Positions 14,892-64,000 of a DNA stretch of 64,000 nt are shown here, piece by piece. Each line of letters begins with the position of its first letter. Positions within the stretch are counted from its first letter, which is position 1. The translations under genes and the position numbers were made by a program. The stretch spans positions 2,122,189 through 2,186,188 of the forward strand of contig RPFO01000348.1 of assembly GCA_009746045.1 (NCBI GenBank). The letters are read 5' to 3'. This stretch comes from Mesostigma viride (taxonomy: Eukaryota; Streptophyta; Mesostigmatophyceae; Mesostigmatales; Mesostigmataceae). The notes below the pieces were generated by a model. That model had not been told where the DNA came from. It searched no databases and saw nothing but the letters and a program-made list of their open reading frames with translations.

Positions 14892-17800
14892 TCAGCGATC
14901 GTTATCGTCCCTCTCCTCAATGGCCCCATTCCGCCCCCGTGTGAAAGAGTTCACCAGCTGGTTGTACTCCTCCATCGGGTCATACACCCGCTTCTGGATA
15001 TGCCGCTCCGTCTTGCCCACACCCCCGCCGGCATGCTCCCTCCCGTGCGGGCCAGCCGTCGCATCCCTTCTACTGCCACCCGCGTACCCCCGGTCCTGGC
15101 CCAACCCAGGCCCCTCCTTGCCCCTCCGCATACCCGTCCCCCGCGCATCCCGGTCATAATGCGAGCCACCGTCACCCTGCCCCGCCGCCCCGCCCGACAC
15201 CCTCCCCCGGGTCCCCCCCTGGCCAGTATTCCCCCCACCCCACCGGTCATCCCCCCTTGATGATGACCCCGATTGTGATCCCCCGGACCGTCGTGCACCG
15301 GAACCGCTGCCAGTAGACACTCGGCCGCTCGCCCCATGGGCATGCGCGCCCCCTGACGTCGAGGACGACTTCCCGCCCCCCGACGACCTCCCCCCACCCC
15401 CCCCAAGCCCCAGCACGACCTTGAGAGCCTCCTTGGGCAGCTTCAGCCGCTGGAGCTCCCGCAACGCAGCCGCGAGCTCCTTGCTGCTGCGCTTGCGCGC
15501 GCGGTGGCTGGGCGACCGCACCTCCCTCTGCGCGTGCTGGAGCGCCCCTTTCATCTCCCTCGCCAGCTGCTCCAGCTCCTCCCGCAAGGATCGCCCAAGG
15601 GGGTCACCCACCGCCGACGCCCCGCCCCCACGGGATGACGATGACGGCCCATGCGGCCCCTTGGCGCCGCCACTGCCCCTTCGGCCATCCCCACCAGAGA
15701 ACCCATCCGAGAACTGCCGCCCGTAACCACCACCACCACTGCTGCCATCCCCCCAACGGCCCCGCCGACCGCCCCTACTGCCGTCCGCCCCATCGCCGTC
15801 GTCCTCTTCCTCGTCCCCATCCCCCCGGACCCCACCCCCCACGTGGGGCCGCTTATCGAACCAGCTTAGCCCGCCATCCTCTCTAGGTTTCTGCCGCCAC
15901 GGCTTGATGGCTTCTTCCGATGCCACCTCGCCACGGATATCCCCTACCCGCCGCCACTCGCCCCCCTCCATCTCCCCCGCCCGGTCGAGCCCCTCATCCG
16001 GCTGGCCCTGGGGTCGCTGCCACGCCAGGCCGCCCTGCTGCATCCCTGTGGAGGTAGAACCCTGGCGCACATCGTCACGTTTCATCCCCCATCCCGCGGG
16101 CGTGCCCGCCCTGACCCCACCCGCTTTGTCGCCGCTGCCCCACAGGCCAGTGCCCTCACGGTCATCATCACCATCATAGTCATCATTACCGCGGTTACTG
16201 CCATCCCCATCCCCATCCACATCCCTGCCATTACCAGCACTGCCACCTGCCGGGAGCTGCTTCTGTGCGAGACCCACCAGAGGTGTCGACCCACCCGGCC
16301 CTTTTAGATCCGATCCCACCGGCGTTCCCACGCCGGCGCCACGGGATCCGACCCCACCCTGCCCACCGGCAAGACCCGCGTTGCCACCACCGCCCACTTG
16401 CCCCTGGACACCGTCCGTCCCGGCTCCCTCACTGGCCGCCCTCGCGCGGCTGTTCAGGATGTTCAACACGGCGTCGATGACATCACTCTCACCATCCTCC
16501 GCATCACCGCCAACCGGCTTGGCCGCCACGGAACCCCCGGCAACCCCGGGTGCCGGCGGCCCTTCCAGCTGATCCACCAGTTCCTGCCAGACGTCACTCA
16601 GCTCTTCTTCCCCTTCATCCTCCGCCTCCTCCTCGGGATCCTCCATACCACCCATGCCCAGCCCGCGACCCTGGGGGCCTCCACGGGTTGCCCCCACCCC
16701 TGCATCCTTCCCCACAGATGCGGCCGCGGTTGTTTCCTCCTCGCGGTTACGGGCGCGAGCACGCTGCACCAACGTGTCCAACAACTGGGAGAAGACATCG
16801 CCCCCCTTGCCGGGGTCAAATCCTGTGCTGGCATCCGTTACCTCAGGCTGTGTCTGGCCCACTCCCCCCATCCCCTGGTTGCCACCAGCCCCGCCCAACA
16901 TCCCCTGACCGCTGCCGCCTGTGGCCCCGCCGGTGCCAGCCTCTCGGGCGTCCTGCCCGCTGTCCCCAACCATCCCTCCCCCAAAACCGCCATGCCGGGA
17001 GCTACCATCGCCAGCACCCATGCCCTGACCTTGCCACGGCCCCACCCCCCCTTGCATCCCCCCCGATGCCCACTGGACGATGCCCTCCCTGGAAGCCCCC
17101 CCTTGGAGGGACGCTGCCTGTGTTGAGAACGAGGAGGCTTCTTGCGCCGACTGTGACTGCGCGTCGATCTGGAAACGGTTAGCCTGGCCGGTGCCTATCG
17201 ACCGCCCCCCCTGCCCGGCCATCTGCCCCCCGCTGGCTAAGCTTGATAACGACCCAAGCTGCGTGCCATCAGGACGGGGAAAACCTCCCGTGGCAGCACC
17301 CTGAAACATGCCACCACGTGCACCCCCATCGATGGCAGCGGCCGCGCCCCCTTGCGCCCCAAAACGGTCCAACGGCCGCGCAGACACACCAAAGCCTGCC
17401 CCTCTGGCGGCCGAGGCCTGGCCAGGCAGCTGTAGCCCACCCCTCGCCCGGTCCCTCGCCCGGTCCATCTCCTCTTCACCCATCCACGCATCCGCATCGT
17501 TGGCGGTGTCCCACGCATCATCACCACCGCCAGCATCATCAGCGCCATCACTAGCACCCCGTGAACTCAGCAAGGCCTGAGTGCCTGTCACGGATGATGA
17601 CCCAGCGGTCGACATGCCACCCACATCGAACAGACCGGGACGCGCCTCAAACCCGAGAGGGCGGCCCATCTCACCACCGCCGCCATTACGGTTACCACCG
17701 CCGTTGCTGCTGAAGGCATGGCTGCCACTGCCACCGCTGAAGCCACCATTGCTGTTGCTCTCGCTGTTGACGCCCCCACCAACAGACCCACTGGCGTCAC

Positions 17801-20678
17801 CACGTCCCGAGACATCCCAAACGGAACGTGGACGCTGCTCTGAGGCCCACTGTAGCCCCCCTTGGCCCAACCCTTGTCCTTGCCCTTGCCCTTGCCCTTG
17901 CCACAACCCCTGCCCTTGCCCCTGGCCTTGGCTTTGTTCCACCCCTTGCTCAAACCCTTGCCCTTGCCATCCGCCCTGCGCCTGCCCCTGGCCTTGACCC
18001 TGGAACTGGTTTTGGAGGCGGCCTTGGCCCTGCCCTGGCCCGGGCCCTGGCCCTTGCCCTTGCCTTTGCCTTTGCCCTTGCCCTTGCCCTTGCCCTTGCC
18101 CTTGCCCTTGCCCTTGCCCTTGCCCTTGCCCTTGCCCTTGCCCTTGCCCTTGCCCTTGCCCTTGCCCTTGCCCTTGCCCTTGCCCTTGCCCTACCCCTCG
18201 CCCAAGATCTTGCCGCCCGCCCTGCTCCTGCCCCTGCCTCTGCCCATAGCCTTGGCTTTGGATTTGGCCTTGGCCTTGGTTCGGGTCTTGTCCTTGGTCT
18301 GGGTTTTGGCCTTGGTTCTGGCCTTGCCCAACCCCTTGCCCTTGCGCTTGCCACCGGCCCTGCCCTTGTCCCTGCCCCTGCCCATAGTTTTGGCCCTGGG
18401 CTTGGGCTTGGCCTTGCCCTAACCCTTGCCCCTGCTGCACCCCAACGCCCGTGAGTAACGACATGGCGGCCGCGTCAAGGTTGGCTGTGACGGTAGATGG
18501 TAGTGGTAGCCGTGCAATGTCCGTGCGCGTGGCACCGTCCCGCGAATCCCCGAACCCATCAGCCGCACCCGCACCGCCGTCACCGCCCCCAATCCTCCCC
18601 TTCCTGGCCCCCTCAGCCCTCCCCTCCCTTCTCCTGCTGTCATAGTCGCCATCATCAACATCATCATCATCGTTGCCGTTGTCATCAGCGTCATCACTGG
18701 CGTTTACATTGCCCTGACCATCACTGGCGCCAGCATCACCGCCGCCCGCCACATCGACATCACCCCACTCCCCTCCCAGGTCGTCGTCACCCCCATCATT
18801 GATCCGCCCACCATTCTGGCTGCCGTCACGACCAATGCCACCACTGCCACCACTGCCACCGCCGCTGCGGTCGCGGTCATTATCACCACTGCCACGGTCA
18901 CTGTAACCACTGCCACCGCTGGCATCGGCAATGTCATGGCCACTGTCAACATCACCAATATGACCGCTGCTGCCACCACCACTGCTGCTGGCAACTTCGC
19001 TGCCGCCACTACCGCCATGTCCGCCAGCATTACTGCCATCGTCCATGCGGCCCTTAAGGTGCACCAGATGCTTGAACCAATCAGCCCAGCTGCCCCGCCC
19101 ACCGCTACTTGAATCCTCATGAGTCGATGGATCCCCCCGCGTGGAATCCCCAGATACCCCGGGCAAAGGCAAGGCTGCGGAAGCAGAAGAATTGTCTCCA
19201 GTCCGCCCCACATCAGCCCACTTGTCCGAAGACAACCCGTCCTGTCCGCCCGCCGACATCCCCATGCCAATGACGCCCCGCCAGCTGTCGCCCTGGGATG
19301 CCCCACCCTGGCGCCTCCCAGCCACCCTGTCTGAAGGGATGTCGAATGTGCCCCCCGCACCATCGTCGCTATTCTCGCCGCCATTGTCCCCATCATGATC
19401 CCCTCCCTCATCACCACCATCACCATCATGACCATCATGACCATCATCATCATCATCATCACCATCATCATCCCGGTCATTGCCCTCAAACGCACGGCCC
19501 CTCCCATCCCTGTCACCACCAAAACCAGTGCGCTGGCCACCGGCAGCCGCCACACCAGGCAGGAGCTCCCTCACGGTCAACTGCGCGGCCTCACTGCTGG
19601 CATCGGTGAGGGGCAGTGCGCCGCCAGCATTCGCCAACGCATTACCCACCCCGGCTCCCGATGACAGTGCTGACGGTAGCCCACCGGCCGGGCTTGACCC
19701 ATCCCCATCCCCGCCACGAATGGGGTCGGTCAGGCCAGGGTCGCGGGAAATGCCACCCAACCCAAAGCGGAGGGAAGGTGTGCTGGAAGTAGGGTCCTGG
19801 ACCTGGCTTGGGTCAAATGCGCTGCCAGCCCCACCGCTGGCAAGCACCACGCCATCAGCAGGTGTCACTGCAGCAGGGTTGTCGCTGCCCCCGCCCCCGC
19901 CCCGGCCTGTACCCAGCCCCTGGATCTTCTCATGCTGTGGCAACTGCACCCTGGCCCCTCCCTGCCAGAGCATGCCGTCATCATCATGCATGCTAGCGCC
20001 CTCCTTGTCGTCCTCGTAGGTGGCCTCAACGCCAGGGTCCGACCGGCCCTGCCCCTGACCGAACGTGGCACCCGGGGTAGCACCCCGAGGAGGGGTGTCA
20101 AGGGCACTGCCGGGGGAGCCGAGGCTACTGACGGTTGCAGGGGCGCCGTCATTGATGGGGAACTGGGAAGGGATCGGAGGCGTGGAAGGGAGGGACACAT
20201 CACCCCAGACATCCTCGCCTTCGTCGGCGTTGTCTTCGTTGCTGGATGCGTCCGAATGGATTGCGGAAGCCGCTGTCAAGGAGGAAAAGGCATCGTCAGT
20301 TCCTGTCTGTCCCGCAGCGCGTGCTACATATCCTGCAGCGTCCACGCCAGAGAGCTCATCCTCCGAAAATCCGTCAGTTTGTAAGTATTCACCGTCGGCA
20401 GTCGAGAGCCGCGCCTGCTGACCCAAGGAGGCCTGCCGGTCTCCCTCCTTGCGCTGCTTGAAGTGCAGAGCAACGCCATAGTGGACGGAGGCCACCGCCG
20501 CGCAGGCCAGCAGCGCAATGCAAGCGGTGCACAGGAAGCAGCGACGAGCCGCACTTCTCTTTTGTTGTTTCTTCCGGAGTGCGGCCTGCTTCCCCGCGCC
20601 GGTGACTGGAATCATGGAACGTAGATCCCGCTGCCTTGCTGCTGAGCAGGGCAAAGGCAGGCAGTTATCTCGCAACAA
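14892..20678 (-). CDS. 1928-residue type II membrane protein with Gln-Gly repeat
   Basis: A single uninterrupted frame with the stop at 14892-14894. The first ATG gives MLRDNCLPLP; a second in-frame ATG 21 codons on (MIPVTGAGKQ) is equally plausible. A basic KKQQKRSAARR segment precedes one hydrophobic helix at about residues 47-69 with no cleavable signal peptide, predicting a type II topology and a very long lumenal or extracellular part. That part is low in complexity: acidic and Ser-rich to about 200, Gly/Asp-rich to about 700, a Gln-Gly repeat at about 748-938, then Gly/Ser/Gln-rich, with a charged helical patch containing SSKELAAALRELQRLKLPKE and a basic C-terminus. Composition suggests a wall, matrix or secreted scaffold protein, but no domain is recognised. 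The absence of introns contrasts with the neighbouring gene. Confidence 0.7.
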   Translation of the reverse strand: MLRDNCLPLPCSAARQRDLRSMIPVTGAGKQAALRKKQQKRSAARRCFLCTACIALLACAAVASVHYGVALHFKQRKEGDRQASLGQQARLSTADGEYLQTDGFSEDELSGVDAAGYVARAAGQTGTDDAFSSLTAASAIHSDASSNEDNADEGEDVWGDVSLPSTPPIPSQFPINDGAPATVSSLGSPGSALDTPPRGATPGATFGQGQGRSDPGVEATYEDDKEGASMHDDDGMLWQGGARVQLPQHEKIQGLGTGRGGGGGSDNPAAVTPADGVVLASGGAGSAFDPSQVQDPTSSTPSLRFGLGGISRDPGLTDPIRGGDGDGSSPAGGLPSALSSGAGVGNALANAGGALPLTDASSEAAQLTVRELLPGVAAAGGQRTGFGGDRDGRGRAFEGNDRDDDGDDDDDDGHDGHDGDGGDEGGDHDGDNGGENSDDGAGGTFDIPSDRVAGRRQGGASQGDSWRGVIGMGMSAGGQDGLSSDKWADVGRTGDNSSASAALPLPGVSGDSTRGDPSTHEDSSSGGRGSWADWFKHLVHLKGRMDDGSNAGGHGGSGGSEVASSSGGGSSGHIGDVDSGHDIADASGGSGYSDRGSGDNDRDRSGGGSGGSGGIGRDGSQNGGRINDGGDDDLGGEWGDVDVAGGGDAGASDGQGNVNASDDADDNGNDDDDVDDGDYDSRRREGRAEGARKGRIGGGDGGAGAADGFGDSRDGATRTDIARLPLPSTVTANLDAAAMSLLTGVGVQQGQGLGQGQAQAQGQNYGQGQGQGQGRWQAQGQGVGQGQNQGQNPDQGQDPNQGQGQIQSQGYGQRQGQEQGGRQDLGRGVGQGQGQGQGQGQGQGQGQGQGQGQGQGQGQGQGQGQGQGQRQRQGQGPGPGPGQGQGRLQNQFQGQGQGQAQGGWQGQGFEQGVEQSQGQGQGQGLWQGQGQGQGQGLGQGGLQWASEQRPRSVWDVSGRGDASGSVGGGVNSESNSNGGFSGGSGSHAFSSNGGGNRNGGGGEMGRPLGFEARPGLFDVGGMSTAGSSSVTGTQALLSSRGASDGADDAGGGDDAWDTANDADAWMGEEEMDRARDRARGGLQLPGQASAARGAGFGVSARPLDRFGAQGGAAAAIDGGARGGMFQGAATGGFPRPDGTQLGSLSSLASGGQMAGQGGRSIGTGQANRFQIDAQSQSAQEASSFSTQAASLQGGASREGIVQWASGGMQGGVGPWQGQGMGAGDGSSRHGGFGGGMVGDSGQDAREAGTGGATGGSGQGMLGGAGGNQGMGGVGQTQPEVTDASTGFDPGKGGDVFSQLLDTLVQRARARNREEETTAAASVGKDAGVGATRGGPQGRGLGMGGMEDPEEEAEDEGEEELSDVWQELVDQLEGPPAPGVAGGSVAAKPVGGDAEDGESDVIDAVLNILNSRARAASEGAGTDGVQGQVGGGGNAGLAGGQGGVGSRGAGVGTPVGSDLKGPGGSTPLVGLAQKQLPAGGSAGNGRDVDGDGDGSNRGNDDYDGDDDREGTGLWGSGDKAGGVRAGTPAGWGMKRDDVRQGSTSTGMQQGGLAWQRPQGQPDEGLDRAGEMEGGEWRRVGDIRGEVASEEAIKPWRQKPREDGGLSWFDKRPHVGGGVRGDGDEEEDDGDGADGSRGGRRGRWGDGSSGGGGYGRQFSDGFSGGDGRRGSGGAKGPHGPSSSSRGGGASAVGDPLGRSLREELEQLAREMKGALQHAQREVRSPSHRARKRSSKELAAALRELQRLKLPKEALKVVLGLGGGGGRSSGGGKSSSTSGGAHAHGASGRVSTGSGSGARRSGGSQSGSSSRGDDRWGGGNTGQGGTRGRVSGGAAGQGDGGSHYDRDARGTGMRRGKEGPGLGQDRGYAGGSRRDATAGPHGREHAGGGVGKTERHIQKRVYDPMEEYNQLVNSFTRGRNGAIEERDDNDR
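17865..18435 (-). repeat. hexanucleotide CAAGGG array coding Gln-Gly
   Basis: Reads CCCTTG repeats on the plus strand, purest at about 18055-18190. In the minus-strand gene each unit encodes Gln-Gly, so changes in unit number keep the frame. Interruptions (Arg, Pro, Asn, Leu) at the flanks show an older, decaying margin around a homogeneous core. Confidence 0.9.
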
Positions 20679-22010
20679 TAATTACCTTGTTGCCGACCAG
20701 GACCCCTTATTTCACCCATGTTAGGAACGCCAGCAACATCGTGGACGCTAAAGCAGGTCACGCCAAGCGTACGCTCGTGCAGCCGATGTTCGGGAAGCTG
20801 CAGGATGCTGATATTTCAAAGGCTTGGAGCTCACACAATAGCCGACATGGCCGGGGTCGCATTGCTTTGGTTATATTCGAGAGCTAACACGCCGGCTATC
20901 TGGAATACTCAAAAGCGTGCAATACTCTATGTAGCAACTTGACACCAGTCACACTACCAAGGGAAACGAAACTACATTCAGAACAGCAGTAGGGATTCCC
21001 GGGATGTGTTAGCTACAGTATATTTTGCCCCATTCGGTTCTGTGAAAATGACGGATTACTCGTCGATTTCGCCTTGCAAAATTGCCGGAGCGCAAGCGCC
21101 GTTGTTGCCCGCCATGAAAGTAGTGTGTTGGCTCTGTTTTCCGCCACGTCTCATTACTGTCTACAGGGCGATTTCTTTGGCTTTCTAAGTTTGAAATGGC
21201 CGTCAAGCCATCGACCGAGTAGCTTCACATAAAAATGCCTCAACAGGTCAAGGCCTTCCTTAGTATTTGTCACACCAAGTGGCAGTTAGTAAAGATTCTG
21301 TCCCACTAATGTCGGAAACAGCAACAACAAGGCCGGACTGTTAGAAGGCCATTAATAACGGCCACCACATCTTGATACCCTAGGCTTAGCAGGGATTAAT
21401 TACTGGCTATATTTGGAATAAACGTACACCTATTTACCTGGAAATCAAGTAACGTGCGTGTTTGCAACTTGCCCGTTGAAACTCTACGGCGGAGCCAATT
21501 TTCGGAAGAACCTCACCCTTATGCTTGCAAATTCGGGACAAATTCGGTGGATGGATGGATGGATGGATGTATGTATGGATGGATTGACGGATTTTCATCC
21601 CCTATTCCTATGTTTTCTCACGTGTACGGCCTTATAAGCTTCGCCAATTCTGGCGAACCTAACGGTTCTTCCGAAAATTGGCTCCGCCTGATAACGGCCA
21701 CCACATTATTCCACATATGAGCGGTGACGAGCGACAGGGAACATCATCAATCGGCATAACAACCTACGCGTGTCTACGCGTGTACCTTTGATTCGAGGCG
21801 CAGGCCCGTAGGCAGGCATGACCTTGGCCATGGCGGTTGCTGACGCCTTCCTACACATATGAAGCGAATGCTGTATAGTGTTAGTGAAAAAACATGTAGT
21901 TCTAGCCAATTCCAGTCAAATTGGGGAGTGGCATGCAGTGACATGGAGGTCCCGTAAAAGAGTTAATTGTTCAAGCTGCAGAATTCCTTAATTCCGGAAA
22001 AGGAGATAAT
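20679..22010. other. divergent intergenic region with a MITE-like element
   Basis: Separates the minus-strand membrane-protein gene from the plus-strand methyltransferase gene, so both promoters should lie here. No convincing TATA or initiator element can be assigned. A terminal-inverted-repeat element occupies 21488-21688, with a GGAT microsatellite at 21545-21585 inside it. Confidence 0.5.
21488..21688. mobile_element. 201-bp MITE-like element with 25-bp inverted repeats
   Basis: 21488-21512 begins GGCGGAGCCAATTTTCGG and its exact reverse complement ends the element at 21664-21688. The interior is non-coding. No clear target duplication touches the ends, but the 15-bp TAACGGCCACCACAT occurs directly at about 21354 and about 21691, so the boundaries may be more complex. 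Confidence 0.7.
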
Positions 22011-39022
<17,012 letters not shown>

Positions 39023-53330: not shown

Positions 53331-53631
53331 CCTGCTGAGAGGCCATGTGTACCCTAGCTATAGCCTAGCCACATACCTTCCACCCCATATGTCATGCAGG
53401 CCTTCTAGGCCCTCTCCTCAAGCCCCCCCTGGGTGCCTGTGCTTGATTAGGAGGCATGAACCACCATGGAGGTGCAGGTCACTATACTTTTCGTCCGAGG
53501 GTAGTAAAAATGATCCGAGGCGTAAATTACGAGGTGGTAACTTACGGCGCAGACTACTCTTACGGTTTACATCCGAGATGGGATCTTTCTCGTAAGCTAC
53601 GAGTTAGATCCGAGGTAAGATCCGACGTCGT

Positions 53632-53900
53632 AATTTACGAGGTAGTAATTTACGAGGTAGTAATTTACGAGGTAGTAATTTACGAGGTAGTAATTTACGA
53701 GGTAGTAATTTACGAGGTAGTAATTTACGAGGTAGTAATTTACGAGGTAGTAATTTACGAGGTAGTAATTTACGAGGTAGTAATTTACGAGGTAGTAATT
53801 TACGAGGTAGTAATTTACGAGTTAGTAATCTACGAGGTAGTAACATACGAGGTGTTAACGTACGAGGTAGTAATGTACGAGTTGGTAAATTACGAGTTGT
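53632..53900. repeat. 15-bp (GTAATTTACGAGGTA)n minisatellite
   Basis: About 13 perfect units, then four or five diverged ones; weaker related words extend back to about 53520. A unit length divisible by three keeps one frame open, producing a spurious repeat peptide. Confidence 0.93.
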
Positions 53901-54160
53901 AAATTAAGATGTCTTCTATTTATTTGGTTTTAATTTGTGCAATGTTCAGTTTCATGAAATGAGCCTAAAAGAGTTTATTATTTCATATTTCAGCATAAAA
54001 CAAATATGTCTTCATTCTCACATTTCAGCCGATGTCCTTGTCGCATTTATAATACATTGAAACTCTAACACAAGACATCAAGGAGACAACCATCGCAGGC
54101 CAGAAATCGGGATAATCCGGACCATGGTAGCACAATATATGATCAGATAACCAAGTCGGC
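53901..54160. other. short AT-rich spacer with S79 fragment
   Basis: An S79 copy (ATCAAGGAGACAACCATCGC .. ACCATGGTAGCA) at about 54080-54132 is followed by the left LINE-A target duplication TAACCAAGTCGGC at 54148-54160. No gene. Confidence 0.6.
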
Positions 54161-56804
54161 GCTGCATTGACTATGTTGTAATGCGCAAGCGTCATCAAGG
54201 ATCTGTCCTAGCTGCTCGCTCGCATGTGATCCCCCTGGTGCGCTCCGATCATCGCATCGTCACCGCCCGCATCCGCCTGCGATTCCCCTCGCCCTTTCGT
54301 AAGCACGTGGCACCACCTGATTTGCGCACACTTCAGTTGCTCGAGAAATCTGACGACGCTCTGGAGGACTTCCCTGAAAAACGCGCCCACAAGCGCGCCG
54401 CAGAGGCGTTCGTCGACGCGCTGGACATCCCGGCCAGCCACGCCCAGCTGTTCGCTGCCGGCCCGGCATCGGCCCTTCGGCACCTCGCTGACAAGCTGCC
54501 CGCGGCCGGGGCCCTACTGCCCCCCCGCCGCCCGCCCCGCTTCACCAGCCTGCACCGGCTCCCCGCCGTCATCCAGGCCCGGCAAGCCCTGCGCGACAAC
54601 CGCGACCCCGCCCGCTACGCCCGCCTCAAAGCCGATTACCACTCGGCCATCCGGCAGGCGACCAAGGAGCAGGAGGACCTTCATGTCCGCGAGTACTTCG
54701 CCCACCTCAAGGACCAGCACGGCAAGTACGCCTGGACCCGCCTGCGTCACGCCCAACGGCCCGCCGGCGGCGCGCAGCCGGCGCCGCGGACGCTCTCTGG
54801 CTCACCGCAGCAGCAGCTCAACCAGTGGTATTCCTCCCAGTCCCGGCTGCTCGGCGCCCCCCGCCGCCTCCGCCGCTTGGCCCTCTGGCGGCCGCACGCC
54901 TGGCAGTAGCACCGGCGGACGTCCCTGCGCCGCCCACGCCACCCGCCGCTGAGCAGGACTACACGTACCCAGCCCTGACGGAACCCCTGGCCCACCCCAA
55001 CGAGCTCCCGCCGTTCACCGAGCTCGAGCTGAGCACCGCCGCCAAGCAACTCCGCTTCTATGCTGCCGTTGGACCTGACCAGCTCCCAGCCCCGGTGATT
55101 AAGCTGACGGCGCTCACGGGGTTCCTGCTTGACGTCTGCAACCGGATCCTGCTTGCCGACGCGCCGCCGATTCCGGAGTGGCAGCACAGCTACCGTATTA
55201 TGCTGTACAAAAACAAAGGTTCCCCTGACGACCCCGCCAACTACAGAGGAGTCTGCATCCAGAGCGCCGCACTTAAGTTGTTCATGCGCATGATCCTCAA
55301 CCGCCTTCGTTCTGCTCTCGACTGTCACCTTGGGGAAAGTCAAATGGGCTTCCGTCCTGGGCGCAACACCGTCATGGCCATCTTCGTCGCGCGTCGCCTC
55401 TTCGAGGAAATCGCTCTCCTGCAACCTGGTGAGTTTCCCGCCATCCTGATCTTCGTCGACTTCATCAAGGCTTTTGATTCTGTCCTCTGGGACGCTCTAT
55501 GGGCTGTACTTGCTCGCGCTCGCGTCCCCACTCCCCTGATTACCGTCATCCGCACGCTGTATGAGGGGTCCACCACTTCGGTGCGCACTCAGCACGGCAT
55601 AACCCCGCCCTGCCCACTGCAGACCGGCGTCTGGCAGGGTTGCGTCCTGTCGCCGTACCTGTTTATTATTGTAGTGGATTATGTTATGCGCCAGGCACGT
55701 GCTCGCTTTGCTAGCATTGCAGGCCGTGCCCCTGGCCTAGCGATCACGAACGAGCTTGGGGAAGGGGGGCCGACTAACAAGCAGAATTTACTAGCTGACC
55801 TCATTTATGCCGACGACATCACGCTCATCGAGAAGCCGGAGTCTGCCCAACTTTGGCTGGACTGCCTGGCGCTCGAGGCTCGGGCGGTTGGTCTAGAAAT
55901 CAGCCCCAAAACGGAGGCCCTGGCCCTCGGCATGGCAGGGCCCCCACCCACACTCCGCCTCTTAGACGATGCCGAGGTCAACTACCCTACTTCAGGCCGC
56001 TTCAAGCTGCTCGGCAGTTGGCTTCCTGACTGCGAGGACGACATGACGACACGGATCGGCATGGCGTGGGCGCACCTCCATGACCACCGCCGCTGGTGGA
56101 GCAACCCCGCCCTACCCCGGATCGTCAAGCGTGACCTCTTCAAGGTCGTCATTCTGACGATCCTGACCTACGGCGCCGAGACGTGGACACTGATGCAGGA
56201 GCTGGAGCAACGACTCGACGGCGCCGTCACCAAGATGCTGCGCAAGGCCCTTAACATCCCCTTTGGTTTGCACATTAGTAATGAGGATTTGTACGCTGAT
56301 TTGCCCTATGTTTCCCACATTATTAGGCACAGGCGCCTGGGCCTAGCCGGGCACCTGGCCCGCACAGATCAGGTAGATACATCAGATAGACTAGCTGGCA
56401 CCAAGCCCGCCCAGCCTGGGCGATATGTCCTCACCTGGCGTGCCCCCGGCCGCGCGCGGCAGGGCCGCCACCCGTGGACTTTTCGTGATAGACTCGGCAT
56501 GGACATGTGCTACACTAGACGTGACGGGCTCACCCCCGGGCAGCCTCCTGGTTTGTCTGTAATATGGAGGCAGATGGTGCGCAAGGATAGATGGCAAGTA
56601 GTGATGAAGGAGACCACCCCCAAGCCTGTGGGGGCTCCGCGTGTGACCAAGTATGGCATTCATAGCGATTCGGGCCGCGGTGCCCACACCCCTGTAACTA
56701 GGACCTAGATAGCTTATACCATCCATTCCATCCCATGTTCCCCTCCCACTGAGGACTTATGCTCACGTGACGCAGTCACGTGTCTATTAATTAATTAATT
56801 AATT
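54161..56804 (+). mobile_element. LINE-A, 5'-truncated, with target-site duplication
   Basis: Bounded by AACCAAGTCGGC at 54149-54160 and 56805-56816. It starts inside the endonuclease domain, carries the rest of ORF2, a 3' UTR of about 75 bp with a perfect hairpin CACGTGAC-GCA-GTCACGTG at 56765-56783, and a (TTAA)n tail. The intact target duplication and near-intact frame mark it as one of the youngest insertions here. It lies at the left flank of the Tnp2 transposon region. Confidence 0.88.
54162..56708 (+). pseudogene. LINE ORF2: endonuclease end plus reverse transcriptase
   Basis: Frame 1 (to 54909) begins in the AP-endonuclease domain (CIDYVVMRKRH .. PLVRSDHRIV, the last a SDH-type motif). 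One frameshift between about 54825 and 54905 moves to the frame that ends at 56706-56708. That frame holds LYKNKGSPDDPANYRG, QMGFRPGRNT, motif A FVDFIKAFDSVLWD, PLQTGVWQGCVLSPYLF and catalytic YADD (about 55806-55817), then the LTYGAETWTL thumb region and RHRRLGLAGHLARTDQVD. Family role: nicks the target and reverse transcribes the LINE RNA. Without the frameshift and the missing 5' end it would be a normal ORF2. Confidence 0.85.
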
Positions 56805-56904
56805 AACCAAGTCGGCTGATGACATCCTTAAATATTTATTGGCTTTGTTATCATCCATTGGATTGCGTGACAAACTCGCTCGAGGCACCGATGGGTGGGG
56901 TCTT

Positions 56905-57650
56905 CTACAAAGGTGCTGACTGGGGCTGGCCCGGTGCCGAGTGCGTGACATCCCCGCTCGCGGCGCCGATGGATGGGGTCTCCTCGGCAGGTTCTGCTGT
57001 GCGCTCGCTTGGTGCGCTCGAGGCGCCGATGCTTGTGCGGTTGTGCGAGTTTGTGCTTGCGTCAGAGTAGGGCCACGGGTTGTTTATGTTGTCGAACAAG
57101 ACACGCGGTGGCACCTGCCGGAAGGAAGCACGCGTCCTCGCCACCTCCTTGAAACATTCCTCCACGTCGTCCCACTCGCGCCTTGGCCCAGACCGCATCA
57201 CGGTCGTGGCCTGAAGGGCCTCGCGCACCTTCTTCTTGTCCCAGCACTTGGAGGCGATGTCTTCCCAATCTTCCCACAGCTCAGGCCGCTTGTCCCGCAC
57301 CTCCTGCTTGTGGTGTCATGATCACACGGCAAGTACATTCATTTTAACCGTGCATGCATTGAACAAACAATATAAGTCATTGTTGGCATACGAAAACTAA
57401 ATGGAGTGACATGCAGTATAGGCCTATGTACCAATGTGTTAAAGAAAGTAAGCGCATGCCACGAAACAGGTATAAGAAGAGAATAAGGCTGCTTACCTGC
57501 ACCGTGAAGTTCAACATCTTCAGATAGTACAAAAGTACCACGCGGCAGAAGTCCTCCTTCAGCCATGCTGGCATTACAATTCGTTCAAGTGGCCCGCCGG
57601 AGCGGCTGTACAATTTTTCCCAGTGAGCGCGCTGCCAAGTGTACTTGTGG
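56905..57650 (-). CDS. partial minus-strand gene beside the Tnp2 element, unknown
   Basis: Two exons join in phase 0: about 57650-57497 (containing WEKLYSRSGGPLERIVMPAW and LLYYLKMLNFTVQ, donor GTAAGC) and 57303-56905 (acceptor CAG, stop at 56905-56907). The second contains ELWEDWEDIASKCWDKKK and FKEVARTRASFRQVPPRV, then a Pro/Ser/Ala-rich tail. The first exon has no ATG and opens after a stop near 57665, so the 5' part is missing or lies beyond the repeats at 57.7-58.2 kb. The helical, Trp-rich exons look like a small DNA- or protein-binding factor. Role as a transposon accessory protein is inference from position. Confidence 0.5.
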
Positions 57651-57746
57651 GCAAATTTTTAGGTGCCCCGTCACTTCGAGGTACTAAAAATTAGGCTACG
57701 GTACGAATTCAGCGAATTTCAGCGAATTTTCAGTCGAACCAAAGGA

Positions 57747-57935
57747 AGTGACGCCAACTACCAAAAAGTTTCCGTTACGAATTTTCAGCCCAACACTCGC
57801 GCAAAATGAAGTGACGGCAACTACCAAAAATTTTCCGTTACGAATTTTCACTCCCACACGTTTGCACAAAAGACTTGACGGCAACTACCAAAAAGTTTCC
57901 GTTACGAATTTTCAGTCCCACACTTCGCGCAAATT
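57747..57935. repeat. 64-bp tandem repeat, three copies
   Basis: Each unit contains GACGGCAACTACCAAAAAGT and TTCCGTTACGAATTTTCA, starting at 57747, 57811 and 57875. It lies between two minus-strand coding units. Confidence 0.88.
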
Positions 57936-58235
57936 TTAGTAGGGCTGCACGCAAGCTACCTTTCAAAATTTTGCGCTAGTATGGAACGCATTTCATTCGT
58001 CTGGAGGAACGCTGCCCGCCAACTACCCCCGTTCAGAAAGTTCCGCCGAAATTTACCCGAGATTTGGAAATCTGAACGTCCGCGCAAATTTTAGTAGGGC
58101 TGCACGCAAGCTACCTTTCAAAATTTTGCGCAAGTATGGAACGCAATTCATTCGTCCGGAGGAATGCTGCTCGTCAACTGCCCCCGTTCAGAAAGTTGCG
58201 CCGAACTTTACTTGAGATTTGGAAATCTGAACGTG
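57926..58235. repeat. 155-bp tandem repeat, two copies
   Basis: CGCGCAAATTTTAGTAGGGC starts copies at 57926 and 58081. Each continues through TTTGGAAATCTGAACG with a few substitutions. It partly overlaps the end of the 64-bp array. Confidence 0.88.
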
Positions 58236-58306
58236 CGGTTGGAGTTTCGCGGGGAAACCCAAGTTCCCAAGTAATTCACCAATGACGCGCTTCGAACACT
58301 TGTCCG

Positions 58307-59132
58307 CTAAAACCTAAGCAGCCGCTCCGGCTGGCCACTTAAACGAAACTTGATGAGGTCTGCGTACTTCTTGATGCGATTGGTGGTGGCCGTCCCCACC
58401 AACCACGGCGTGTAATCGTCGGACACACGCACCAGTCCAAACTTGTACAAGTTGGACCGGTGGTTGGCCAGGCGCTTGATCAGCGCAGCCCGGACTTGAA
58501 CGTAATCCTCCGCAGGAACCGAGTCGGCGGGGCTTCTCACGATGCCCGACTCCTGGAAGAACATGGCGATCGCGCCACGCAGACCCATCTCCCTGACGGA
58601 CCGCTCCTGGTCCAGCTGAACCTCTTTCCCGACATCACCGCGAATGGACAAGCAATGACGGGAGAGGTGGTCGACAGCGGCCGAAAAAGCTGGGGTCGTC
58701 TTCTGCAAACGTGCAATGTGCAAGATAGAGAAAGTGCGAAGTTAGAAATCTGGAATAATGAATCGTGTACAGCAAAAAAGTTCAGCAAATAAGCTATAAA
58801 ATGCGTAATGTGCTACCCACGAAATTCCTGGGCAGTTTGGTGCCCAGTCGCGTCATGAGACTGGCGACGTCTTGTCTCAATGCCGCCACCTCCTGCCTGA
58901 GGCCCTCCTCCGCCCTGTTGGCCGCGATTTGCAAGTTCCTGCCGGCGGAGGTGGTGGCCGGTGCATCCGGGGGGGGCGCCATATCGTCGTCCTCGCCGGA
59001 GGACGACGAGGAAGAGGAATCGGATTCGGATTCGGATTCGGAGGAAGGCAACTGGCGGCTTTTCTTGCGCCGCCGGCCGATGTCCTCCTCCTCCCGCGAC
59101 ATCATGGCCTTCTTCTTGAGCTTGGGCGCCAT
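58307..59132 (-). CDS. 235-residue acidic/coiled-coil protein beside the Tnp2 element
   Basis: Two exons: 59132-58821 (104 codons, donor GTGGGT) and 58702-58307 (acceptor CAG, stop TAG), joined in phase 0. The N-terminus MAPKLKKKAMMSREEEDIGR is basic. It is followed by a Ser/Asp/Glu run (about residues 25-45), a Pro/Ala linker and a heptad-like RAEEGLRQEVAALRQDVASL. Exon 2 has a helical domain (FSAAVDHLSRHCLS, GLRGAIAMFFQESGI, ALIKRLANHRSNLYKFGLVR) ending RLLRF. No family is recognised. It is transcribed away from the Tnp2 gene; two-gene CACTA elements also carry a second DNA-binding protein, so an accessory role is plausible but unproven. Confidence 0.6.
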
Positions 59133-59873
59133 AGAAACTGATGAGCTGCGCGTAAACGTCAACTGGAGTCACCTACGGTGGTGAAGACGTGAAGGCGCAC
59201 TTTCAAATTTCGCGTGCACTCCTGGTGCACTGTCAAATTTCGCGTACACACGTGGTTGCAGCCATCCGACGGCTACAACCCCAGTGGTCAGGGGCAAACC
59301 AAACATCGCACGGTACACGTTCTTGCGGCATCGCTGTCAGGTCACCCTATAACGCGGCAACCCGCTGTTATACTGGCGGCAGTTGTGTACCACCCCCCGC
59401 CTTCCCACGGCAGGTACGCAGCGACCCGCTGTTGTGCTGGCTGCAATTGTGTATCACTTGTACGGTATTTGTGTATCACTTGTACGGTATTTGTGTATCA
59501 CTTGCCCTCCTTCCCACGGCAGGTACGCAGCGACCCGCTGTTGTCCTGGCTGCAATTGTGTATCACTTGTACGGTATTTGTGTATCACTTGTACGGTATT
59601 TGTGTATCACCCCCCTCCTTCCCGCGGCAGGTACGCAGCGACCCGCTGTCGACCTGGCTGCAATTGTGTATCACTTGTACGGTATTTGTGTATCACCCCC
59701 CTCCTTCCCGCGGCAGTTGTGTACCACCTTCGGTTTAGTTAGGTATTGGTGTAAGCCTCGTGTTGTAATTGCTGTACGTCCATGGCGTTTGTTGCAACTG
59801 GAGGTGTATACAATATTAATGGGACGACACTGCATGGCAACGATGCGCACGGAATTGTCAGCCTGACAAGCAA
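59133..59873. promoter_or_regulatory. divergent intergenic region with direct repeats
   Basis: Lies between the start codons of the minus-strand accessory gene (59132) and the plus-strand transposase gene (59874), so it should contain both promoters. It holds a 25-bp direct repeat (ATTTCGCGTRCAC at about 59206 and 59239) and a 108-bp tandem repeat from about 59380 to 59720, with inner GTGTATCACTTGTACGGTAT units. Repeated short motifs between divergent transposon genes could be binding sites for an element-encoded protein; no core promoter element can be assigned. Confidence 0.4.
59380..59720. repeat. about 108-bp tandem repeat with nested 22-bp units
   Basis: Starts of GGCAGGTACGCAGCGACCCG at about 59409, 59518 and 59625. 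Within each, GTGTATCACTTGTACGGTAT is present one or two times. Confidence 0.88.
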
Positions 59874-62800
59874 ATGAGCTGGCTGACTCGTCGATCTCAG
59901 GCATATTACAAGTCCCCCCAAAAGTCGTTCGTAGGTGAGGCCATTGAACGTTCTCGTCGTCAGGCACATCCCTTCTCGTTCCCCGATATCGGTCCACAAC
60001 CGCTCGTCGCGCGCCCCAATGTCGGTGCCTCCTGGTCCGTTCCCAGCGGCGGGAACGACGGAGCCAAACGGCGAAGGCTGTTTGGTGAGCCACGCCAGGA
60101 ATGCCCGCAAGGTGAACAGCTGTTGAAGACCGCCGAAGCTGTTGAAGTGGCTGAAGTGGATACACGGTCGCCGGAGCCCGATGCGGCGGGCATGGAAGGC
60201 GTAGAGCCTGCTGAGCCGCGCCCTGATGACTCAATGGAGGAGGAATGGGGGGCGATGGCGGAGGAGGAGTTTACGGCAGACGGTGGGGCAGGGGGGGCGA
60301 TGGCGGAGGAGGGGCTTACGACAGACGGTGGGGGAGGAACGGCTGGTGATGTTGAGGCCGGCGCCGGCCGTGCATCAAGAAACCCATGGGCATGGTCTAA
60401 GCCGTTGTCTGGGAACGCGGATTTTACACAGGCTTCGCTTTTCTGCATAGCCACGGAGTTTGGTCTTCCTGATAAGTGCATCGAAGCGTTTCAGGAACTG
60501 GCGAAGCACCCACAATACAGTGTGACCAGCCACGGGGAGTTCGGCGTGGCTAGGAGACGGTCATTGGAGAAGGGCCTGCCCCTTGCGGACGCACTGACTG
60601 TGAATTGGGTCCCAGCGGAGGCAGAGGGCGATCCTTTGCGTGAGGCAGTCAAGTTCACTTACATCAGCATACAGTCAACGCTATCCGCTCTGCTGCAGAA
60701 TGAGTCGTTCACGGGGAAACTGTTACTAGAACACGAGATGAATGAGGATCGGCGTGTGTGGACTTTCAATCAGACCCAGTTTTACAACACCCATCCAACA
60801 GTTCAACAACAGGAGGTGCAGCTTCCCGCCTTGGCAGCAAGTTCCAGTGAGAAGCGGCAGAGTGTCGTCCGCATTGGGGACACCATCATGGTGTTAATGG
60901 ACAACAACAAGGGGCAGCGAAAGCGAGAAGAACTTTGCCTTGTCCGCGCTGTCTTCATGCAAGTAAACGCTGACGGTACTCGTGAGCCATGGGCGAAAGT
61001 CCGGTAAGTGGCACGGATGGTGCTTTTGTGTCGATGTACACTCATCATGATATGCCCTTGGGATTGCACATGCTGAGTTAATTGCATTCTGCTGAAAACA
61101 GATTGGTGTCTGTCCGGGCTCCCTTGTTGGTTGGTACCAGTTGACCACTATAAACTGCCGTAATGGGCATGCATCCGGGCCAGTGCAAGCATGGTTATTA
61201 AACTGGGTTGTGGGAAGTGCAATGTTTGCACCATATATCAAGTATGATGACAGTGTTTATGCAGCAATGTGGTGTGTTTAGAGACCAAATAATGTCGTAG
61301 CCTTTTTGGTCCTGCATGAGCGCAAAGTTCCGAACACTATTTTCCCGAGGTTAGCCACTCCTCGGCATCCTCGGCATCCTAAATTGAGACCACGCATGCG
61401 CAGGATGACACAGAGTGCACTACATTTGGTGGGAGGATATTGACGTGTGCACGTCCAGCACGCTTGGATGGATCTAGTATTGTATATTGATGACAATCCT
61501 ATAGTATTTGCCCGCCGTCATGATGCCTGCAGGTTCTTCTACCGCGCAAGGGATTGTCCGGGGGGGACCGTACCGCGGGATGCCGATCGTGTCAGTGAGG
61601 TCTTCTGGACGAAGCATGAGCAGGAGATCTCTTTACTGAACTACGGGGGTCACATTGACGTGGTTGGCGTCCGTAAGTGGAGGAAATTTGCCGAGGCTGA
61701 CCGAGAGGGCGGGCGAGTGTTCTTCATGCGCAGGTCGTACAACCTGTCCCCGGACAAGCCTCGGTACAAGAGGCTGAGATTCTCTAGATGGGAAGCCGAA
61801 TTCCGCTGTTACCGCCCTTCTAAGGATGGTCTACGCATCCTATATTTGGTAGTGGCGTTGTGGGATGACTCATTTGAGGAGTATCTCCATCGGCATGGGA
61901 CGCTGGAAGCGCATTTGTTCACTGTTCTGAACATCGAGCGCGCCGACAACAAGTCAAGAGACATGATCTTCCCCATCACCGTGAGAGATACACATGTGCC
62001 ACGAGAGGCAGTCCTTGAGTGTCTTGTGGAGGACATGGATGCGATGGCAGAGGGCGTGCCCATGCTTGTGAAGTTTCCCAATACGCCAATGGAGCGGTGG
62101 GAAATCCGTGTCGCGAACCTGAACGTGATGGATTCGGCCGCCCGCAACGGCGCGATGGGGCACAAGGGTTGCACCGGCGACAAAGTGAGTGATGTTGTCA
62201 CGTAGCTTGGTTCGGGGTGCTGCCCATGTGACCTTGATGTATTGGGAAGCTGTGTTGGTTTGTTATCACCGTAACCATCAGGCCTTCTTTTATTTCTGCG
62301 TACCTTGGTGTGCGGCGCATTGTGGGTGTGTGCGCCACTGCAGGGATGCCCCTTTTGCAACGTTCACCACGACGACTGGGCGGATGCGACGGTGGACGTG
62401 GCGGAGTACATGCGCAGTGAGAAGCAAACGGCGGAAATATTGGAGGAGATGGAGGGCATGGCGACGGCCACGGCACGGAAAGAGAAGGCGAAGGAGACCG
62501 GGGTGATGTATCAGCCGCTGTGGCCTTGGCGGGAGCTTCGATTCTTTGACCGCTACCGGCAGTATCCGATGGATATCTTTCACAATCTGACGTTGGGTCT
62601 ATGTAAGCAGGTGGCTCGCTACCTCGAGGAGGATGGAATTCCCACTCGCCAGCACCCGGAGTTGGATGCTTGGGTAAGCGCACACCCCACGCGCGTCGGG
62701 AGCCGGCTGCCGCAGGGGAAAGCTTTTACCTTGTATCCACATTACAAGGGAATGGAGCTGCTGACCCTACTGTTCCAAATGCCTTTTGCACTTCCCATGC

Positions 62801-64000
62801 TGCTGCTGAGGAGGCGGAATGAGGGAGATGATAAGGAGAAAAGGAAGGCCCGGCGGATCAGCAAGATGGTGATGCACCTCGCCAAGTGGGCGCAGATGAT
62901 GCTTGGTCCCGTTACGTCTCCAATCTACAACTTGGCTGCTGACAACGTCTACGCCACTTTTCAAGAGTGTTTCGGCACCTTGTGGCCGCGTGGCAGCCTT
63001 GCAGGAAAGGGTCCTGGGGCAATGGCTGAGGCAGCGGATGGCGACGAAAAGAAGAAAAACGCGGAGAAGAAGAAGAAGAACGCGGAGAAGAAGAAGAAGA
63101 GGATGGCACGCCAAGACAATGCCGCCAGCCATAACGTCCACATACCGCGCCATGCTTTGGCACAGACTGACGATGTGGGTCGTATCTGGTCCTTGGGCCC
63201 GCATGAATTTGAGGGGTACCACTTATTCCTGAAATCTCTCATGGAGTCCATGGCCAAATGCCACAGCAAGGAGCCGGGGCGTTACTTGCTGCAGAAACTA
63301 CAGGGCTACTTGGCGTGGCAGTCAATGCTGGTTAAGGAGACATCCCAGCTCGATGAACGCGTGCTGCAAACCTTGCAGGAAAGCAGGATGTTCAACAAGC
63401 TGTATCCCAAAGCGGCCGCGACTGGTAGTGGCGCGAGTGGCGGTCCTTCTGGGCGGGAGGTGTGGGTGCGGCAAGGGGCGACTTTTCCAACGGTCATACA
63501 CGAGCGCTGCGCGTTGGGGCGCATCGAGCAGGTGAGGAAACGCATGGGCGCTGTTGCTATGGCTGCGCTGGCGCTAGGGCTAGGGCATTCCTTGGTGTGC
63601 TGGGCCGACCCAGCATTTCCGTTCATATGCCCAGGCTAACAACGGCACTTGTGTGTTTTGCATGTGGTGCTGTGTGTGTGCAGGTCATGGGGGGCATGCC
63701 TTGCGGCCGTAACCCTAAGTCAACACCTACGTTGGCGGAAATTGGCGCTGACAAGCAGACGGTGGACGAGCTTCTCGCCCCGCTGGGCTGTCCACCCTGG
63801 GATGAAGCAACTGGCAGCGTGAAGGTTTATGCTAGTGCAGTAGTCGGTGCCAGGACCATTACGACTGGGGAGGTCAGGTGCTTCCACACTGATGCATACC
63901 CGGAAGGTCAAGTGGCGACGGCAGACTCATTGGCATACCAGGCGGCGGACAATGTGGACGCTGAATTTTGGTTTGCTGAGGTTGGCACCATCTTCATGCT
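59874..64000 (+). CDS. BAH-domain / Tnp2 (CACTA-type) transposase fusion, right end open
   Basis: Four exons splice in phase: 59874-61003, 61533-62184, 62344-63531 and 63684 to beyond 64000; about 1095 residues are visible. Residues 1-200 are low in complexity; 200-325 look folded. A BAH-like module spans about 330-447 across exons 1-2: RIGDTIMVLMDN, LCLVRAVFMQ, WAKV-RFFYRARD and SEVFWTKHEQEISLLNYGG. The Tnp2-type core follows: LWDDSFEEYL with LFTVLNI (first acidic site, about 488), ANLNVMDSAARNG (about 577), GHKGCTGDKGCPFC (zinc-binding Cys pair) and YPMDIFHNLTLG (about 671-680). Exon 3 also has a Lys/Asn/Glu coil of about 20 residues. Tnp2 proteins cut and paste CACTA elements; BAH domains read nucleosomes or modified histones. 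Intact frames suggest a recent or active copy. Confidence 0.72.

Follow-up and report, generated by a model that had tools for sequence, protein, structure and literature searches.

A predicted BAH domain in the transposase of a giant CACTA-ended DNA transposon of Mesostigma viride

Does the green-lineage alga Mesostigma viride carry a DNA transposase with a chromatin-reader domain of its own, and what might such a domain do for the transposon? The question arises from one window of 64,000 nucleotides (contig RPFO01000348.1, positions 2,122,189 to 2,186,188), near the right edge of which a BAH-like module and a DDE-type core appear to be encoded by the same gene.

The gene and the giant element that carries it

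The initial annotation read positions 59874-64000 as a single spliced plus-strand gene, and the four exons indeed join into one open protein. Exon 1 (59874-61003) encodes an N-terminal region and the first part of the BAH domain; exon 2 (61533-62184) encodes the remaining BAH and the putative catalytic residues D1 and D2; exon 3 (62344-63531) contains the motifs CPFC (residues 596-599), HIPRH (860-864) and HEFEGYH (881-887); and the start of exon 4 (63684-64000) is still open at the window edge. Translation of the joined exons gave 1095 open residues up to that edge; the introns are of the GT..AG type, and the phases, counted cumulatively, are 2, 0, 0. The exon 4 bases in the window are identical to those of the sister copy C183 (317/317), in which exon 4 reaches a stop (249 residues); with exon 4 taken from this copy the full transposase is ∼1239 aa.

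The transposon itself extends to the left of the earlier start at 59874. Its left terminus lies at position 53480 (own copy, 53480-64000, plus strand, left terminus to window edge, with the right part outside the window, where the own sequence reads N); in an alignment with the C335 and C1106 copies, whose flanks are unrelated, the three copies agree and the left end is exactly CACTATACTTTTCG. The left terminal inverted repeat (TIR; 53480-53535, plus strand, CACTATACTTTTCGTCCGAGG...) is identical over 56 bp to both ends of the C183 copy; this repeat with its exact CACTA terminus supports an element with CACTA ends. The ends are CACTA..TAGTG with inverted repeats and the tip CACTATAC.., and not TGT..ACA or CATCA..TGATG. 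The 21-bp TIR tip occurs 545 times as an exact match in the 440-Mb genome (272 forward and 273 reverse; control 0/0). Among 11 elements, 8 had a target duplication of exactly 2 bp and 3 had none; after one double was merged, 8 of 10 had the 2-bp duplication, for which the chance is ∼9e-9 at 1/16 each. A canonical CACTA element with 3-bp target duplication was rejected (3 bp in 0/11 elements). The search for other copies in the assembly, which had been recommended, gave 113 matches; in 33 of these exon 3 is nearly complete, at 98-99%. The gene-bearing elements listed span 24-47 kb and hold further genes, and the genome also has shorter elements that share these ends; the host transposon is very large and apparently young. 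We concluded that the gene encodes the transposase of a giant DNA transposon that carries several genes, ends in CACTA...TAGTG and mostly has 2-bp duplications.

Subterminal repeats are typical of CACTA elements, and likewise an array of 17.8 copies of a 15-bp unit (GTAATTTACGAGGTA) was detected by TRF at 53630-53896; the C335 and C1106 copies have such units at their left ends too. The own copy has received two insertions. A retroelement with reverse transcriptase (54161-56803, plus strand; Pfam RVT_1, 88.8 bits; labelled non-LTR-type by eye) is flanked by a TAACCAAGTCGGC duplication and is missing at the matching point in L033 and c1106. An insert with 29-nt inverted arms (57572-58355; arms 57580-57608/58319-58347), absent from L033-L036, splits and thereby breaks a divergent second gene on the minus strand (56905-59132; start near 59132, limits drawn by eye from ORFs), which has a KKK/SESES-rich N terminus and no Pfam family above cut-off; the region of this gene is common to L033-L036 at 89-99%. 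Between the two divergent genes are three ∼108-bp repeats (59377-59718; repeat search and TRF), and two further cassettes of this repeat lie between other divergent ORFs in the C183 copy. The cassette is promoter-like and may act as a promoter.

The splice sites are present in all four sister copies modelled, and all four have a broken frame (at 411, 71, 412, and 88 residues). In C446, C1635, C1663, and C1735, all four window exons are open, as in the own copy. Exon 1 is open in 6 and broken in 5 of the 11 sister loci with a whole exon 1. Exon 2, with the larger part of the BAH, has an open frame in 14 of 30 loci, the own copy among them, and is broken in 16, 13 by a six-G run and 3 by other changes; the seven-G run is kept in 17/30. 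Exon 3 is open in 30/30 loci, a count to be read with the fact that these loci were chosen by exon 3 itself. Exons are less variable than introns (0.6-1.7% vs. 3.1-4.3% of sites).

The BAH domain in three diverged families

A BAH domain had been claimed at residues 330-447, with the exon 1/2 junction inside it. Both statements agree with the Pfam match (PF01426) at residues 332-447, of which residues 332-376 (60867-61003, plus strand) come from exon 1 and residues 377-447 (61533-61743, plus strand) from exon 2. In the whole protein the match scores 30.7 bits (E 3.2e-7), just under the 30.8 cut-off; the excised region scores 36.0 bits (E 7.1e-9), above it, and no BAH match was found in five controls (the reversed sequence and four shuffles).

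Two diverged families in the same genome (47% and 23% identical) retain a BAH at the same place, directly before the catalytic core as in family 1. Their BAHs share 43% (family 2) and 17% (family 3) identity with the family-1 BAH, with 15 invariant columns across the three; Pfam BAH scores are 33.4 bits for family 2 (above cut-off) and 22.3 bits for family 3 (below cut-off). In family 2 the exon 1/2 intron is at the same codon and phase as in family 1, and the family-3 copy examined has BAH, D1, D2 and CxxC in one uninterrupted 612-aa frame. Since BAH and the first half of the core share a single frame in family 3, the fusion is not a splicing artefact; together with the intron position in family 2, this rules out two adjacent genes read as one, as the initial annotation had also maintained. 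An N-terminal domain precedes the BAH and the D-D-C2C-H3H-E core follows it, and all three families share this fusion. A host gene or domesticated transposase, of which a low copy number and no TIRs would be expected, was rejected by copy number and TIRs. The host does have BAH genes (L065, L066) from which a domesticated gene, or a chance chimera with a transposon fragment, could be drawn, but such an origin is extremely improbable given the tens of almost identical copies, the TIR pairs that surround the copies checked, and an architecture that recurs in diverged families.

To which BAH proteins is the transposon domain related? A profile built from the three transposon BAHs was compared with solved structures; the best matches were SHL (E 5.8e-4), EBS (0.017) and the polybromo BAH (0.07), and eight of nine structure matches up to E 10 were BAH proteins. 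The likeness to the plant histone readers EBS and SHL (structures 5z8l, 5znp) thus lies in the BAH by sequence profile. The family-1 BAH as a single sequence gave no match among solved structures up to E 10; the AlphaFold model of the BAH alone (single sequence) was poor (pLDDT 49), and a fold search with it was uninformative. Binding residues were compared at the aromatic-cage positions of EBS/SHL. Where the cage has Trp, family 1 has Phe and family 2 has Tyr, and the two families retain the cage Tyr; in family 3 these two positions are occupied by Asn and Trp. No counterpart of the third cage residue was seen at its place in the alignment of the transposon BAHs. EBS and SHL are host regulators with PHD fingers and not transposases, and their cage residues are matched here in part only. 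Because of this partial retention, methyl-histone reading by the transposase BAH is plausible, not assured. Within-family purifying selection on the BAH was considered as well: with 1 nonsynonymous vs. 1 synonymous change the count is uninformative, and a more favourable count of 5 to 6 had included one copy without exon 1.

The partial loss of cage aromatics, the low identity among the three BAHs and their constant position directly before the core would also be expected of a structural or protein-binding module (e.g., for multimer assembly or replication-factor contact) that reads no mark, in which case its retention would say nothing on targeting. We consider this a possible but less likely explanation: among solved structures the plant histone readers SHL and EBS come closest, and the W-to-F/Y change leaves an aromatic residue in families 1 and 2.

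Catalytic core and relation to known transposons

The core had been described as a DDE transposase of Tnp2 type. The first part of this description stands and the second does not. Landmarks of the CMCT (EnSpm-Plavaka) group, chosen by eye, follow in the order D-D-C(2)C-H(3)H-E on the plus strand: putative first catalytic Asp D489 (WDDSF, 61867-61869) and putative second catalytic Asp D577 (VMDSAAR, 62131-62133), both invariant in the three families; the C(2)C motif CPFC (62347-62358; CGFC in family 3); the H(3)H motif HIPRH (63139-63153; HMGLH in family 3); and putative catalytic Glu E884 (HEFEGYH, 63211-63213; HAFERDH in family 3). C(2)C, H(3)H and E were thus observed in families 1 and 3. 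A Tnp2 core was rejected, as Tnp2/Transposase_21 (PF02992) has no Pfam match in the transposase up to E 10; the protein is rather Plavaka-like, with 2-bp and not 3-bp duplications. The Plavaka model (PF18759) matched residues 590-682 at 19.8-22.2 bits, below its 26.3 cut-off (family 3, 16.9 bits). Judged by its motifs, the predicted transposase belongs to the CMCT group.

The element resembles Plavaka, which is also of the CMCT group, in the D-D-C(2)C-H(3-4)H-E core, the short (2-bp) duplications and the oxygenase gene of some families (PMC12730594); it differs in its CACTA..TAGTG ends, those of Plavaka being given there as TGT..ACA or CATCA..TGATG, and in a Pfam Plavaka score below cut-off. 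The word BAH is absent from the main text of that paper. CACTA/EnSpm elements, including giant elements with multiple ORFs in red and brown algae, are alike in having CACTA termini, large size and several genes, and their defective copies are thought to be mobilised in trans (PMC6431247, PMC12477816), as would also hold for the element here; the M. viride element departs from them by 2-bp instead of 3-bp duplications, the lack of a Tnp2 match and the BAH in its transposase. Relatives were found neither in viral contigs nor in prokaryote genome contigs, the own genome being the only eukaryote searched. The Pfam Plavaka model found nothing over this whole genome, and the Pfam BAH search of the genome missed family 1, in which an intron splits the BAH; such genome searches therefore miss much.

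What the BAH domain may do

We favor, with a probability of roughly 0.6, a CMCT transposase of a giant CACTA-ended transposon to which a BAH domain was fused as a chromatin tether. Movement of the element would be by cut and paste, with use of the inverted and subterminal repeats. Through binding to some feature of the nucleosome or to a protein of chromatin, the BAH would hold the transposase-DNA complex at chosen chromatin, which could bias landing sites toward safe or silent chromatin, or aid the enzyme on its own silenced copies, by analogy with the chromodomains of some Ty3/Gypsy integrases; intact copies would mobilise in trans those whose transposase frame is broken. The broken exon 2 in 16/30 loci and the cage residues matched only in part speak against this reading. 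Chromodomain Gypsy elements and the Tudor-bearing Gypsy-10_Ec32 likewise fuse a chromatin reader to an inserting polyprotein or enzyme (PMC12477816); these are LTR retrotransposons, whereas here a BAH is joined to a DDE transposase. In the PMC open-access literature searched, of which coverage is partial, no BAH in a DNA transposase was found.

The element also carries a dioxygenase-like gene (PhyH, 23.7 bits, cut-off 22, over 26 residues only), with 124 matches in the genome, of which 28 have an open frame over the full length; 26 of the 28 share a contig with a transposase match, a relation at contig level only. The BAH might lead the transposase to the element's own methylated, silenced copies and, together with the dioxygenase-like protein, might help it to escape silencing, a role proposed for fungal transposons that bear TET/JBP. 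The open full-length copies of this gene, a DNMT1/MET1-type methyltransferase in the host (L066, named by eye) and the TET/JBP genes of fungal Plavaka/EnSpm elements (PMC12730594) speak for such a role. We regard it as rather unlikely, however, since the PhyH match is so short and TET/JBP models gave no match to the protein up to E 1. A little more doubtful still is the idea of a giant green-lineage transposon clade in which a transposase reader and a mobile oxygenase "eraser" find a chosen chromatin state and chemically reopen it before moving; if true, this pairing would be an epigenetic toolkit carried by the element itself.

Chromatin readers fused to integrases are already known in retroelements; here the predicted reader is on a DDE transposase, and its presence in three diverged families suggests that the fusion has been kept for long. 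Since a single genome holds open copies, BAH-frameshifted copies and shorter same-end elements side by side, it becomes directly testable if the insertion of a DNA transposon is steered by a reader domain.

Structure and domains of the transposase gene

The BAH-bearing transposase gene occupies four plus-strand exons (59874-61003, 61533-62184, 62344-63531, and 63684-64000) whose borders are canonical and whose junctions have phases 2, 0, and 0, and 1095 residues remain open across the joined exons up to the window edge, in agreement with the initial annotation of a single gene spliced in phase. Exon 4 of the window's own copy is identical to that of the copy on contig C183 at 317/317 shared bases, and the C183 exon reaches a stop; joining own exons 1-3 to C183 exon 4 gives 1239 residues in total. 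The BAH domain, originally placed near residues 330-447, was recovered by Pfam at residues 332-447 with 30.7 bits in the whole protein and 36.0 bits when excised (cut-off 30.8); none of five reversed and shuffled BAH sequences matched any BAH model. The proposed Tnp2-type core did not hold up: Tnp2 gave no Pfam match in the transposase up to E 10, and Plavaka at residues 590-682 scored 19.8-22.2 bits, under the cut-off of 26.3. The landmarks, picked by eye, run in the order D489 and D577 (the putative catalytic aspartates D1 and D2), CPFC, HIPRH, and E884 (putative catalytic glutamate), which is the order described for the CMCT group (PMC12730594). Structure prediction run without an alignment was poor.

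BAH-transposase fusion in diverged families

A BAH search of the genome returned three matches in all, none from the window's transposase family (family 1). Two are host genes: L065 (C2145) is EBS/SHL-like, its closest solved chains being plant EBS/SHL, and L066 (C1402) is a DNMT1-type methyltransferase; this pair suggests that the host belongs to the green lineage. The third match (L067) represents another transposase family, family 2, which shares 43% identity with family 1 over 204 N-terminal columns and 41% over 106 BAH-exon columns. The intron that splits its BAH (33.4 bits) matches the own intron in both codon and phase (TG|G; own copy, CG|G). This copy is nearly single in the genome and carries a frameshift further downstream. 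A genome search with family 2 led to a third family at 28 places (27-29% identity). At the one family 3 place examined (L078), a single 612-aa frame carries the N-terminal domain, BAH, D1, D2, and CxxC, and the next ORF carries HMGLH and HAFERDH; the BAH here scored 22.3 bits, under the cut-off. In the three-family alignment, identity to the first sequence is 47% for family 2 and 23% for family 3, and the D1, D2, and BAH landmarks are common to all. With a profile built from the three transposon BAHs only, 8/9 matches to solved structures up to E 10 were BAH proteins, with SHL, EBS, and polybromo BAH at the top. The fusion is thus common to families, and because it is conserved across them, including the single frame of L078, the joining of BAH to the core is independent of splice prediction.

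Ends, sizes, and copies of the transposon

Alignment of the own copy with the copies on C125, C335, C1801, and C1106, together with extended C335 and C1106 stretches, placed the left end at window position 53480, exactly CACTATACTTTTCGTCCGAGG; the flanks beyond are unrelated between copies, and 15-bp subterminal repeats follow the terminus of the own copy. In the genome (440 Mb, 2243 contigs), exact matches to the 21-bp tip number 272 forward and 273 reverse (control, 0 and 0). Among the first 100 listed of these 545 places, 86 were joined into 43 pairs, 25 of them 10-15 kb long and 17 of them 15-60 kb long; the remaining pair, at 261 kb, is probably a mispair. Seven pairs contain a transposase match from the genome searches with the own protein or with family 2: C113 (23.6 kb), C183 (25.2 kb), C224 (26.0 and 47.1 kb), C1 (33.9 kb), C125 (37.0 kb), and C48 (43.0 kb). 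The C113 and C183 elements have reverse-complement flanks and are one insertion on two contigs, so some copies are counted twice. An 11.5-kb element on C1 has the transposon ends and ∼3.3 kb of one end in common, and gave no match when compared with the transposase gene. Where both flanks were read (11 elements), exact 2-bp target duplications were found in 8, none in 3, and a 3-bp duplication in 0; merging the doubled insertion gives 8/10 (chance ∼9e-9). The genome holds at least 113 matches to the transposase protein, a lower bound since 42/379 candidates were scored, and at least 33 of them cover nearly all of exon 3 with 98-99% identity.

Outside its transposase gene, the own copy has been damaged by two insertions: one is a retroelement that encodes reverse transcriptase (54161-56803), and the other (57572-58355) breaks the divergent minus-strand gene. 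Pieces related to the retroelement also lie near 49-51 kb. Elsewhere in the window are a telomere-like interstitial array of the 7-bp unit ACCCTAC (30226-32995, ∼396 units), a tandem 40-bp unit (1-969, 24 copies, 97%), and a single minus-strand open frame of 1929 aa (14892-20681), by eye very abundant in Gly, Gln, Asp, and Ser, with no Pfam family up to E 0.01.

Many copies of the gene are broken, which counts against function. Among 30 loci selected by exon-3 match, exon 3 is open in 30, and exon 2, which encodes the larger part of the BAH, stays open in 14 loci and is broken in the other 16; in 13 of the broken loci a G run is shorter by one G (seven G in 17/30, six G in 13/30). Seven six-G loci are identical, two of which (C113 and C183) are one insertion. 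The six-G form has spread either because open copies moved it in trans, as argued for defective copies of giant algal elements (PMC12477816), or in appearance, through miscounting of the G run in the assembly. The four sister copies modelled first end early, at 411, 71, 412, and 88 residues, and exon 1 is open in 6/11 loci that hold it whole. In the C446, C1635, C1663, and C1735 copies, judged exon by exon by pairing L074-L077 with L015-L018, all four window exons are open. Within-family pN/pS of the BAH was uninformative.

Additional element genes and a possible role for the BAH

Further genes were read from the C183 copy. A dioxygenase-like gene (within stretch L041, C183:17000-26999; PhyH match of 23.7 bits across 26 residues, cut-off 22) is reminiscent of the TET/JBP genes of fungal transposons. 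It has 124 genome matches, 28 of them covering at least 314/324 residues at 89-100% with no stop, and 26 of these 28 share a contig with a transposase match; dozens of relatives at 25-48% occur elsewhere in the genome. A protein-kinase-like gene on the minus strand (L042, ∼C183:28020-29228; 33.2 bits, cut-off 31.7) lies inside the transposon ends, and the copy additionally holds ORFs without a family. Two further occurrences of the repeat cassette at window 59377-59718 lie in C183 (20825-21369 and 29829-30195); the position of the cassette between divergent ORFs of the element at all three sites suggests a shared bidirectional promoter.

Already published are giant multi-ORF EnSpm elements (PMC6431247, PMC12477816), EnSpm-Plavaka elements of a green alga (PMC12633428), oxygenase-bearing Plavaka/EnSpm of fungi (PMC12730594), and reader domains of Gypsy elements (PMC12477816). 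Searches of open-access (PMC) papers turned up no BAH-bearing DNA transposase. The transposon would move by cut-and-paste, and its BAH, whether in choosing targets or in acting on silenced copies, may serve to tether the transposase to chromatin or to one of its proteins.
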